This document shows, one piece after another, positions 6,291 to 17,343 of a stretch of DNA of 34,390 nucleotides. Location of the stretch: the NCBI GenBank assembly GCA_027081015.1, contig JALWMA010000121.1:1-34390 (forward strand), read 5' to 3'. Position 1 is the first letter of the stretch, and each line of letters opens with the position of its first letter. The stretch is from Campylobacterales bacterium (GTDB lineage Bacteria > Campylobacterota > Campylobacteria > Campylobacterales > Hydrogenimonadaceae). The notes under the pieces were generated by a model, which made no database searches, had not been told where the DNA came from, and was given only the letters and a program-made list of their open reading frames with translations. Position numbers and translations under genes: made by a program.

Positions 6291-6901
6291 CCGTTGCTTT
6301 GCCGAAAGGGCGGATTGCCGATGAGACCCTGGAGATTTTCGAGACCATATTCGGACGTGAGTTCAAGTTCGAGTCCAGAAAGCTGATACTCGAAATGGGT
6401 GATTTCCGCTTTCTTCTGGTGCGCAACCAGGATGTCCCGACCTACGTGGCGCACCAGGCTGCCGATATAGGGGTCGTCGGCCTCGATGTGATAGAGGAGC
6501 AGGGGCTCGATATCGTCAGGCTTCTCGACCTCGGCATAGGCAGGTGCAGGGTGGCCGTCGGAATAAGGGACGAAGATGAGATAGACTGGAACAGGCCCAA
6601 CATGAAGGTGGCGTCGAAGATGGTCAACATCACCCGTAACTACTTCAGCAAAAAGGCGATGGGGGTCGAGGTGATCAAACTATACGGCTCCATCGAACTT
6701 GCTCCGCTCGTGGGGCTGGCCGATGCGATAGTGGATATAGTGGAGACTGGAACAACGATGAGGGAGAACGGCCTGAAGGTGGCGGAGACGATTATGGAGT
6801 CGTCCGCCCACCTGATCGCGAACAAGCAGAGCTTTCTGGCCAAAAAGGGCGAGATAATGGAGCTCTACACTGAGATGGAAAAGGTAGTACGTGGGGCTTG
6901 A
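6284..6901 (+). CDS. hisG: ATP phosphoribosyltransferase, short form
   Basis: It joins ATP and PRPP to start histidine biosynthesis. The 205 residues open MLTVALPKGRIADETL. They contain DVPTYVAHQAADIGVVGLD and the PRPP-binding loop near DAIVDIVETGTTMRENGL. The length is that of the short HisGS type, which lacks the C-terminal regulatory domain and needs HisZ as partner. No hisZ gene is in this window. The ATG at 6284 has an AAGGAAG site and overlaps coaX; a methyltransferase overlaps the 3' end by 11 bases. No other his genes are adjacent. Confidence 0.95.
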   Translation: MLTVALPKGRIADETLEIFETIFGREFKFESRKLILEMGDFRFLLVRNQDVPTYVAHQAADIGVVGLDVIEEQGLDIVRLLDLGIGRCRVAVGIRDEDEIDWNRPNMKVASKMVNITRNYFSKKAMGVEVIKLYGSIELAPLVGLADAIVDIVETGTTMRENGLKVAETIMESSAHLIANKQSFLAKKGEIMELYTEMEKVVRGA

Positions 6902-7598
6902 GCTCTACGCCAAAGTGGAGCCCCTTCTCGGATTCGAAGAGGAGATAGAGGGGCTCTACAGGCTATTTGTAGAAATTGTCGCGCCGTGGAGCCCCGAGTC
7001 GCTTCTGGACATAGGGTGCGGCAGCGGCAAGTTTCTGAAATTCGCGCAAAGGAGCCTCTTCTTGAAGAGGGCCCTCGGGGTCGACCTTAGCGAAACGATG
7101 GTGGAGCGTGCAAGGCGGAGCGGGGTCGAGGCGGAGGCTGTGGATATCTGCGAACTCGACGGAAGGTTCGATGCCGCGACAGCGGTGTTCGACGTCTTGA
7201 ACTACCTAAACGGCGAAGAGCTGCGCCGCTTTATGGGGTGTGTCGAAAAGGTGCTGGAGCCGGGCGGGATTTTTGTCGCCGACATCAACACCCTCTACGG
7301 TTTCGAAGAGGTTTCGCAGGGGGCTCTCGTAAGGCGCTCGGAAGATCGGGTGCTGGTTTTGGAGTCGATATTTGAGGAGGGGCGGCTCGAGACCTCCATT
7401 GACTACTTCGCCAAAGAGGATGGGGAGTGCTACGTGCGCGAAGAGGATCGCGTCGTGCAGTATTACCACGATGTGGAAGGTATAGCCTCTTCAAGCCCCC
7501 TGGAGCTGGTCCAGGTCTACCCCCTCGCACTCTACGGCGGGGACGAGCCGGACAAGGAGGTGCTTCTCTTTAAAAAAAGGGATGGTTGGTTGTCATGA
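6891..7598 (+). CDS. Class I SAM-dependent methyltransferase
   Basis: The 235 residues carry the Rossmann-like methyltransferase core: motif I SLLDIGCGSGKFLKFA (about residues 37-51), the acidic residue ending beta-2 in ALGVDLSETMVERA, a motif with DAATAVFDVLNYL in the post-I region, and EPGGIFVADINTLYGF. The substrate is not evident. The GTG at 6891 has AAGG upstream and overlaps hisG by 11 bases, placing it last in the run that starts at 3710. Its C-terminal half is similar to other stand-alone small-molecule or protein methyltransferases, and I cannot narrow it further. Confidence 0.85.
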   Translation: MGLELYAKVEPLLGFEEEIEGLYRLFVEIVAPWSPESLLDIGCGSGKFLKFAQRSLFLKRALGVDLSETMVERARRSGVEAEAVDICELDGRFDAATAVFDVLNYLNGEELRRFMGCVEKVLEPGGIFVADINTLYGFEEVSQGALVRRSEDRVLVLESIFEEGRLETSIDYFAKEDGECYVREEDRVVQYYHDVEGIASSSPLELVQVYPLALYGGDEPDKEVLLFKKRDGWLS

Positions 7599-7599
7599 C

Positions 7600-7758
7600 G
7601 TTATACCAATCCCAAATGAAAACGAAACACCCGGTCCTCATCCTCGCTCGACAAGTGCTCCGCGCCCTTCGGCCGGCTTTCGTTCGACTCGCTCCCGCAG
7701 GTCTCGCTGTGGTGACGACCGAACATTTCGTTCTCTTTTTATTTCGGATCGGTATTAC
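7600..7758. mobile_element. MITE-like element: long imperfect terminal inverted repeats, no ORF
   Basis: The 159-base segment begins GTTATACCAATCC and ends in the reverse complement of GTAATACCGATCC. The outer arms of about 40 bases match imperfectly on both strands: ATACC(A/G)ATCC(C/G)AAAT, then AACGAAA, then CGGTC(C/G)TCA. The right arm carries about 5 extra bases. The centre is a GC-rich stretch around GCCGGC. No convincing coding frame is present. A short non-coding element bounded by imperfect inverted repeats between convergent genes fits a miniature inverted-repeat element. I saw no clear target-site duplication and no matching transposase in the window, so its mobility is inferred. 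Confidence 0.55.
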
Positions 7759-7773
7759 GCAAATTACGCGCCG

Positions 7774-7840
7774 AGCCCGCAGTTTGGCAGGGGTGGACGG
7801 CCCTGCAACCCATGAAGCTACAAAACTCAAGATTTCGAGA
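7774..7840 (+). repeat. Interspersed repeat, copy 1 (67 bp)
   Basis: This stretch matches 16142-16209 in the same orientation with only one length difference. Shared blocks are AGCCCGCA(A/G)TTTGGCAGG, CGGCCCTGC(A/G)ACCCA, AAGCT and TTTCGAGA at conserved spacing. GCAGGG and CCCTGC can pair as a hairpin. It starts 15 bases after the MITE-like element and ends 11 bases before the stop of the convergent gene at 7852. The rest of 7599-7851 holds only these two elements. Confidence 0.7.
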
Positions 7841-7851
7841 GGTTAAATCGG

Positions 7852-8436
7852 CTACATATCTTTCTCTATCATATTCTGCTTTACGATTTCGCTTTCGCTC
7901 CAGTCGGGACGGAGAGTTATCTCTTGTGCACCGGATGGGTTCGAAAACCCTTTTTTCATACCTTTTACAAGACACTCCACAAAGATGCTCGCCGTCTCCT
8001 CATCGAGTGGGTAGAGCATCTCGAGCCTGTGTCCAATTTCCGGCACGGCCAGAACACTGAAGACTCTCCCTTTTGAATCTTTACCTTTTATAACCGATAT
8101 GTGCCGGCTTTCGGCCTCCACGCTGTAGCCTGTAAATCCGAAAACTTTTGCGACCACCGCATCCGGCGGGAAAGAGAAGTCGTAGGTTGCCGGAAAATCG
8201 ACACTCTCGTAGAGCAGTGTGGAACCGTTTGGAAGCTTGACGACTCTTCTCGAGATCTCAAGAACGTCTACAAGCTCATCTTTTTGCCCATATGTAGGCA
8301 GATCTATCGAGCAGGCACCGCTGTGCAGATGCAGAGTTTGACCGCTGAATTCAAACGGAGCTCTCTTTACGCTGTTAAGGCGCCATAGGAGGAATACGGC
8401 GATGAGGAAGAGTATGGCGATCGCGGCTGTCTTCAC
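7852..8436 (-). CDS. Unknown membrane-anchored protein
   Basis: I do not recognise the family. From the GTG at 8434-8436 it has 194 residues: an N-terminal anchor (VKTAAIAILFLIAVFLLW) followed by a predicted periplasmic domain of mixed strands with the segments SGACSIDLPTYG, PATYDFSFPPDAVVAKVFGF and RVFSVLAVPEIGHRLEMLYP. Only one cysteine pair is possible (GACS and EC in IFVECLVKG). The frame opens further, to a TTG at 8466, but a TATAAT box lies at 8466-8471 on the same strand and would place the transcript start downstream of that TTG, so the GTG is favoured. It stands alone, convergent with the methyltransferase gene. Confidence 0.7.
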   Translation of the reverse strand: MKTAAIAILFLIAVFLLWRLNSVKRAPFEFSGQTLHLHSGACSIDLPTYGQKDELVDVLEISRRVVKLPNGSTLLYESVDFPATYDFSFPPDAVVAKVFGFTGYSVEAESRHISVIKGKDSKGRVFSVLAVPEIGHRLEMLYPLDEETASIFVECLVKGMKKGFSNPSGAQEITLRPDWSESEIVKQNMIEKDM

Positions 8437-8465
8437 GAAAAGTCTCTTGTTGTGGGATCTATGCA

Positions 8466-8471
8466 ATTATA
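8466..8471 (-). promoter_or_regulatory. Candidate -10 box for the gene at 7852-8436
   Basis: A consensus TATAAT on the minus strand is preceded by AAAAAAATTG. The transcript would begin near 8459, giving a leader of about 22 bases to the GTG start at 8436. This box decides between the two possible starts of the gene. Confidence 0.5.
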
Positions 8472-13709: not shown

Positions 13710-15992
13710 CTATGAGCGCTCTGCGGCTGTCGACATCGCTTCGGCACCGTCTCTACGCCTGTTTGCATGAAGCTCCTCCCTCATGCTGTCGAGCAGCGTG
13801 AAGAGCTCTTTGCCGGCCTCTTCGATACGGACGAAATTCTCTATGATTCTCTCCTCCTGCTCGAGGCGGCGATCCTCTCCTCTTATGAACTGAAGGTTCT
13901 GCAAGATCAGGTCATGGAAGGTTTTGTGCGGGGCCTGCAGCTTCTGATAACTTGCAGTCGATCCAAACCTCTTTTTCCCTTCCGAGGTGTACCACTCGGT
14001 TAGCCTGCAGCTGTCGTAGTCGTATAGATTTATATCGCTTCTTGCTTCTACCATCGCGTTGTATCCGTTGGATTTGAGTATGATGTGGTCGATCTTCGTG
14101 CGTATTACGAAGACCTGGTCCCCCATCTCCTCTATGAGTTCGGACATCTCCTTAGCGTCCGAGTCGAGTCCGTGCATCATCTCTTTGAACTCGGAGACCG
14201 AATCGGATACGACCCCGGCAACTTTGGTCATGCTCTCCGACTTCTCCATTATAGAGCTCGACTCCTGCTTCATCGTGTTTATCGATACGTTTATCTCGCT
14301 CGTCGCCTTCTGTGTGCGCTCGGCCAGCTTTCTGACCTCGTCGGCGACCACGGCGAAGCCGCGGCCGTGTTCACCCGCACGTGCCGCCTCTATGGCCGCA
14401 TTGAGCGCCAGCAGGTTCGTCTGGTCGGCGATATCCTTGATGAGGTCCACCACGGAGGTGATCTCGTTGCTCATCGCATTCAGGCGCTCTATGGAGCTGT
14501 TGGAGTCGTTTATCTGCATTACGAGCGACTCGAGCTTCTGCAGAATATCTTCGAGCGTCTCAATGCTCCGGGAAGACTGCTCACTCGTGTTTCCGGTCGT
14601 CTTCAGGATATGCCCCAGATCCTCTATGAGCCTGGTTATTTCGTTCTGCATAAGCGATAGCCCCTCGCCTACATCGCCTATGGAGTGGAGCTTGGAGGCG
14701 AAGTTTATGATCTGCTGCTTCTTGTGTGAATCCTCCATCGCTTCTATGCCGTTTTGGACCATATGTATCGCCGTCGCGAAGTCCCCTTCCATGTTTCGGT
14801 CGCTCAGTTTGGTGCTGAAATCGCCCCTCGAGGCCATAGCTACGGAGCGGTTTATGCGGCCGGTCAGCTCCCTAATGGTCGATACGAGGGAGTCGATAAG
14901 TTTCGTGATCACATCCATCTCGTTTCGGCTTACACTCCTGCGCTCGATCTCTACCGAGAGGTCTCCCCTATTGATTCTCTCTATCAGGCCCCTCAGGCGC
15001 TCTATGGAGTCGATTATCGATTTTGTCACACTTCTTGAAATATACCCTATGACGACGAGTGTAAAGAGTGACAAGATAGCGAGTATCAGCAGTTCAGCCA
15101 GTGCGCTGTTCTTTGCATACTCCGATTTATCAAGTATCTGTTTTTGAATATAGTTTTCCATCTGTTTAAGGCCGTTTATCTTTTTTGTTATAGTCTTAAA
15201 CCAGTATGAAGCATCTACGCCAAACCCATCGTCTCTGTCAAGAGCAATGTTTCTCATCTTCTCTACCTCCTGAAAAGGGGGCTGAGACGCTATTTTTTTA
15301 TAAAATTTTTCAAGTTTTTCGTCGGCTGTTACTTCGAAGAGGTGGAAAAATGCTTTCTGCTGGGCCAGTACGGAGATGAATTTGGAGTATAGGAATTTGT
15401 CGAACCTGTCTTTTGAGAAGACACCCGACAAAATCGCACGCTCGATTCCGGCCCGCTCCTTGCCGCTTATGAATAGGAGTAGGGAGTTCATAAGGTTCTT
15501 CAGTTCGGGATCGGCGACTTTAGTAGAGAGCCTTCCGACGGTATCGATGATCGATTCATTGATGGCCGTGTAGAAGCCGACAGCCTCTTGCGTGCTGACC
15601 GACATCGAGTCGATCCTCTTTCTCATGCTCTGCAGTCCGGAGAGGTCAATGGACCTTTCGGCTTCGGCAGCAAATTCGTCGTTGTGACTCTCTATATATC
15701 TTCTGTAGTCTGATATCTTCTTGTCAGTAACTTCTCTCTGTTTCGTTAGGGTAACTTTGAATTTTTTGCCTTTCGAACTCAAGAAGCCGGCACTCGCGCC
15801 CCTCTCTTTCTGAAACTCGTGGAGCATGTCGCTCAACTTTACGGAGAGCTCTGTCTCCTTTATCGCCCTCGATGCGTCCAGGTATCTGTCATAGTTCGTA
15901 TGTAGAACCTTCAGGGCGTAGAGGGTGATGGTGACTATCGCAAGCAGGCTGAGAATTGTGAGCCGTTTTTTAATTGTCATGTTTTTTATCAT
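13710..15992 (-). CDS. Methyl-accepting chemotaxis protein with NIT and CZB domains
   Basis: The 760-residue transducer has a membrane segment at about 10-30, a periplasmic sensor from about 35 to 295, a second membrane segment near 297-320, HAMP, the signalling hairpin and a C-terminal extension. The sensor has the NIT pattern ([13 protein letters not shown] near 60-71, ERAILSGVF near 184), associated with nitrate or nitrite sensing. The hairpin tip [20 protein letters not shown] lies near 523-542. The tail is a CZB zinc-binding domain with the full 3His-1Cys set: His636, Cys662, His689 and His693. CZB domains sense zinc and hypochlorous acid in known receptors. No che genes are nearby. It is monocistronic. 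Confidence 0.93.
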
Positions 15993-16141
15993 AATCTATT
16001 GACCTTTGAACAGAAAGCTTTCGAATTTTATGTCGTACATGAGAGATGTTTAAGTACTACATAAAAACCGAGCTAAATCTATAATCGTCATTTTGCGAAA
16101 TTATTGCACTGATTTGCCGATGTTAAGAAACCTCCTGGCAT

Positions 16142-16209
16142 AGCCCGCAATTTGGCAGGAGGTAAGCGGCCCTGCGACCCACCAAGCTTCGAGATCGCTG
16201 TTTTCGAGA
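16142..16209 (+). repeat. Interspersed repeat, copy 2 (68 bp)
   Basis: It matches copy 1 at 7774-7840 over its whole length in the same orientation, with conserved blocks and near-constant spacing. Here the repeat is preceded by ACCTCCTG (about 16130-16137), which pairs perfectly with CAGGAGGT inside the repeat (about 16156-16163), and GCAGG can alternatively pair with the later CCTGC. It lies between the chemoreceptor start and the ilvC promoter, upstream of the promoter and so outside the ilvC leader. Apart from this and the ilvC promoter the gap 15993-16320 shows nothing recognisable. Confidence 0.7.
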
Positions 16210-16285
16210 AAACTCTATATTGCAATGTAAAATTTATAAACTGGGACCAGAAAGAGAATTTATATGCTTCAAAGTCCTCTTTCAA

Positions 16286-17343
<1,058 letters not shown>

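Follow-up and report, generated by a model that had tools for sequence, protein, structure and literature searches.

In the window, by which we mean the whole 34,390-nucleotide stretch of Campylobacterales DNA analysed here, sequence at 7774-7840 recurs at 16142-16209. What are these two stretches? The original prediction took them for a two-copy family of 67 bp, either a dispersed element or a structured RNA, and listed short words shared by the pair. All of these words are there, at the positions claimed. Both the length and the copy number were too small: with worn terminal repeats included, the element extends over approximately 7749-7851 and 16117-16236, and at least 57 further matches to a unit of ~122 bp occur elsewhere in the genome (2.14 Mb in 147 contigs).

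The two copies in the window

The following features were placed in the window.

7749-7851, folding strand minus: copy 1, whole decayed element (85% to the consensus from 7755; by alignment, ends by eye)
7753-7820, minus strand: conserved core of copy 1, comprising linker, hairpin 2 and hairpin 1 (model R1, 47.7 bits, E 3.8e-11)
16117-16236, folding strand minus: copy 2, whole element, more decayed than copy 1 (consensus match and alignment, ends by eye)
16121-16189, minus strand: conserved core of copy 2, comprising linker, hairpin 2 and a partly broken hairpin 1 (model R1, 26.1 bits, E 2e-5)

The covariance model R1 was trained solely on copies that lie elsewhere, and its scan of the window gave nothing significant beyond copies 1 and 2. 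Aligned with each other, the two copies are 83% identical (39/47 bp, E = 1e-10), and the core pattern, with up to three mismatches allowed, has one match in the window and none in 100 shuffles.

Both copies are relics. The terminal repeats of copy 1 are worn (left, ~7749-7760; right, ~7840-7851; by eye) and its right-end hairpin is deleted, and copy 2 keeps remnants of the left terminal repeat (CCGATGTTAAG, 16117-16127) and of the right one (~16225-16236). No target duplication is visible at either copy, having been lost, and most of hairpin 3, whose intact form is TCGAAATC-NNN-GATTTCGA, is gone from both. The 13 unconserved bases of equal length that the original prediction pointed out within the repeat correspond to the 5' arm and the loop of this hairpin, in decayed form.

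The contexts of the copies differ, as had been noticed. Copy 1 has on one side a methyltransferase-like gene (6891-7598, plus strand) and on the other a 204-aa open frame (7852-8466, minus strand; no Pfam match), whose 3' end it abuts. The stop codon of this frame falls exactly at the edge of the copy, so the decayed element starts the frame's 3' untranslated region. The neighbours of copy 2 are a chemoreceptor gene (13710-15992, minus strand) and ilvC (16321-17343, plus strand). Its place ~85 bp upstream of ilvC could suggest a cis-regulatory leader or riboswitch of that gene, a reading that we consider extremely improbable: the folded strand of copy 2 is antisense to ilvC, Rfam gives no match, and the neighbours vary from copy to copy with random orientation. 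The early argument against a riboswitch holds.

A mobile element with recurring ends

Intact units in the genome have CTGATGTTACGC at the 5' end and GCGTAANATCAG at the 3' end. An intact unit opens CTGATG-TTACGCAAATTCCGGGC and closes GATTTTACGC-TTTNT-GCGTAA-AATCAG, and most intact copies are ~115-145 bp long. In the elements of relatives the ends keep the form CTGAYNTTACGC and the middle differs. Among 101 elements with both ends, identity between the 7-bp flanks was 0.666, versus 0.447 +/- 0.014 when flanks were re-paired between elements, and it was 0.29-0.42 at other lengths and registers. Exact 7-bp duplications flank 26 of the 101 elements; the consensus of the target duplication is TTANNNA, which many fit. 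Only 3 of 112 copies lie inside open reading frames (genes being called by open-frame length alone), and orientations relative to neighbouring genes are even (30/30/28/21), which argues against a host regulatory role of the dispersed copies. The element is short, multicopy and intergenic, with terminal inverted repeats and a target duplication of fixed length, and this combination identifies a non-autonomous transposon (MITE). It is thus very probably a non-autonomous DNA transposon of ~122 bp that has spread through intergenic DNA, and the dispersed element first suspected proves to be a transposable one. A transposase acting in trans would recognize the ends and make a 7-bp staggered cut.

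Some copies in the genome form head-to-tail arrays whose period is exactly 120 bp, separated by spacers like GCCATCCATG (L014-L037, on contigs C40, C41, C125, C20, C30 and C36 of G000), and contig ends in G000 often lie in or near copies. In another genome, G156, a truncated copy (L227 132-180) runs directly into what look like a ribosome-binding site and a start codon (CCCCCTAAAGAAGGAAAAAAGATG); judging from this arrangement, the insertion may now be part of the gene's leader.

The covariance model has matches in 94 of 397 Campylobacterota genomes and in 18 of 68 genera. The core pattern occurs in at least 111 stretches of the GTDB genome collection, all of them from Campylobacterota among the matches listed, with Sulfurimonas, Sulfuricurvum, Sulfurovum, Sulfurospirillum, Hydrogenimonas and their relatives as hosts. 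The closest named copies are those of Hydrogenimonas sp. S141_77, which makes Hydrogenimonas the probable genus of the host. Viral contigs and phages have no match to the element, and plasmids have one, in pSULKU01 of Sulfuricurvum kujiense. Rfam 15 holds no match for the window, for intact copies or for the rRNA-operon copies described below, and literature searches found no published description of the element; element and module are new to the libraries searched.

A second non-autonomous element, ~257-267 bp long, has the same ends (CTGATGTTACGCAGTATA.. or CTGACCTTACGCA..) and is otherwise unrelated. In its ~267-bp form, from two sister genomes, it has exact 7-bp duplications (e.g., TTAAAAA and TTATGAA). 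Because two elements have the same ends, one transposase probably moves several MITEs. Loci of the second element are L094-L102 (G007, G001) and L229 (G043); its interior looks strongly hairpinned, and similar between families.

The autonomous partner would be an insertion sequence bounded by CTGAYSTTACGC. The search, which covered the larger contigs of the genome collection, found no autonomous transposon with these ends, a weak sign of its absence. A Tn5/IS4-like partner, hinted at by the CTGA ends, was set aside: PF02281 had no match in 150 genomes, a weak negative since no control match was obtained either, and matches to PF01609 came without the ends. Two candidates with paired ends 0.5-6 kb apart were also rejected. 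The one on contig C8 of G156 consists of two separate copies flanking ordinary genes, and the one in G001 has ordinary genes inside. Sulfurimonas sp. Kmv11 (L237, L238, L249, L252) has two further kinds of repeat that share their outermost 14-15 bases with the element. They start CTGACCTTACGCACCAAGG and CTGACCTTACGCACCTTTT, are known from their ends only, carry inverted repeats of ~50 bp and break contigs. Their ends point to more elements with these termini, and one of the two types may be the autonomous partner.

The hairpin module and its relatives in rRNA operons

Three hairpins and a conserved linker, AGCUUYRGGGGGKUGYR on the minus strand, recur in 197 unique cores. In 25 divergent sequences, 95.4% of the cells in hairpins 1 and 2 are standard pairs, and covariation is 0.446, versus 0.170 +/- 0.014 when shuffled and 0.08-0.13 when slid. 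Hairpin 2 contains the pairing of GCAGGG with CCCTGC that had been proposed, and this pairing is real. Among 31 copies in the genome of the window, unpaired columns and loops vary and stems hardly do, a sign that the stems were under selection while the element spread. The interior of the element is a covarying hairpin module, probably one that works at the level of RNA, much as the alternative of a structured RNA had it, except that folding is on the minus strand and not on the one read at the time. A lack of further copies in the genome and of covariation across relatives would have spoken against the original prediction; the search of genome and relatives found both. We think it highly likely that the element is a MITE with a selected fold.

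The assignment to the minus strand comes from mismatches in the stems. Read on the plus strand, these are A.C in 351 cases versus G.T in 117, counts that give a direction and no p-value, as the copies are not independent. An A.C on the plus strand is a G.U on the minus strand, so it is the minus strand of the window that folds. Energy alone cannot decide the strand, because either strand folds much more stably than its shuffles do (z ~ -5 to -10). This strong folding of both strands would also suit a fold whose importance lies in single-stranded DNA, perhaps as a substrate of the transposase or of replication, and not in RNA. End-to-end pairing and the extra right-end hairpin would resemble structures of DNA transposition, and DNA tolerates G.T pairs too. 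We nevertheless regard a single-stranded DNA role as unlikely, given that the mismatch bias favours one strand, that target duplication and inverted repeats indicate double-strand cut-and-paste, and that rRNA operons retain the module where terminal repeats are missing.

In one genus (L339-L358; G072, G059) the repeats look modular. One hairpin 1 with its flanks is joined there to five or more different versions of hairpin 2, which looks like an exchange of hairpins between copies.

The matches from one family, probably Campylobacteraceae to judge by its three rRNA operons and inserts in 16S, came as identical triplets, from which a tRNA origin was suspected. Rfam and BLAST placed them in rRNA operons, beside tRNA genes and not inside them. 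These copies lack transposon ends and are all rRNA-sense, at the following distances.

Before 16S: 0 nt, sense, four genomes
Before 23S: 1-10 nt, sense, nine genomes
Before tRNA-Ala: 5-7 nt, sense, two genomes
Before 23S, farther: 55-313 nt, sense, four genomes

Of the 19 tabulated copies, 15 are no more than 10 nt away from a mature 5' end, at positions that are partly inherited and not independent between genera. One copy, in G294 (L290 1498-1635), lies within a 16S intervening sequence bounded by CCCTATATATT and AATATATAGGG; the same operon has two more copies, before 16S and before 23S. A model made from the rRNA-operon copies together with other divergent members finds copies of the Hydrogenimonas type at ~1e-11, and with matches in both model directions the two sets are related.

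That these copies are all sense and abut 16S, 23S or tRNA-Ala, and that the module is kept across families without transposon ends there, could mean that it is mainly a host RNA. In one family it would serve pre-rRNA maturation by defining or protecting mature 5' ends, and only later would a transposon have captured it and spread it as a passenger elsewhere. Several observations make this rather doubtful. A number of genomes of one rRNA-copy genus have a normal 16S leader with no copy before 16S, and the boxed leader and RNase III stalk seem, by eye, to be present without the module. Two genomes of the family have 22 and 34 matches, mostly dispersed. In addition, two 23S loci of a Hydrogenimonas relative (G001), examined with 1.5-kb flanks, carry no copy.

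A possible role of the fold, and known systems

The interiors of MITEs are commonly taken as junk. Here, compensatory changes preserve the interior across a phylum, and it turns up again in sense orientation at the edge of rRNA genes; the fold may be more than junk. By analogy with repeats whose transcripts are cut by RNase III (see below), we tentatively suggest that the transcript of the module is itself cut or marks cut sites, an idea that we favour less than its opposite. The minus-strand transcript would be a substrate of cellular RNA processing, with RNase III-type cutting of the hairpins. Copies in transcribed regions would then be cut out or mark a cut, and cutting would render insertions in transcribed spacers harmless. 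A module that acts as a cut site would explain why sense relatives persist in the removed parts of rRNA operons, beside mature 5' ends.

A more far-reaching version, which we put forward with considerable reserve, is that of a phylum-wide RNA module that marks or creates processing sites. In one family it would define where mature 16S, 23S and tRNA-Ala begin. Elsewhere it would travel as cargo of a MITE, and the insertions of that MITE would in this way be removed or neutralized at the RNA level. If transcripts are cut at the module, the maturation of rRNA would be tied to a selfish repeat, in a phylum to which both pathogens and primary producers of the deep sea belong. The element also explains repeats that lack annotation in many genomes of Campylobacterota.

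Three known systems invite comparison. The copy in a 16S insertion with complementary ends is a likeness to the rRNA intervening sequences (IVS) of Campylobacter, in which isolates with IVS show no intact 16S or 23S on gels (PMC2801512). However, IVS sit inside mature rRNA and are excised, whereas most of the rRNA-operon copies precede it and one (in G294) is inside 16S. The insertion that G096 has at this 16S site is not matched by the model, so element and IVS are different things. The BOX, RUP and SPRITE repeats of Streptococcus pneumoniae are small and dispersed, have extensive RNA secondary structure and are judged parasitic (PMC3049150). They are nearly confined to the pneumococcus and its near relatives, whereas the element described here is found in many genera, and BOX is modular, whereas we see hairpin swapping in one genus only. 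Neither BOX, RUP and SPRITE nor the rRNA IVS match the element in all defining features.

The Correia elements of Neisseria (NEMIS/CREE), as reported (PMC2649163, PMC2229807), are likewise small and non-autonomous, with terminal inverted repeats, a target duplication and many intergenic copies. Their transcripts form strong stems, as the element here is predicted to do, and are reported to be bound and cut by RNase III. Correia elements belong to another phylum and have other ends, and, like BOX, RUP and SPRITE, they differ from the element in host range; it is by their descriptions that we set these repeats apart. Moreover, the stem reported for Correia is made by the terminal repeats, whereas the element of Campylobacterota has three internal hairpins that covary across a phylum and, unlike Correia, has relatives in rRNA operons.
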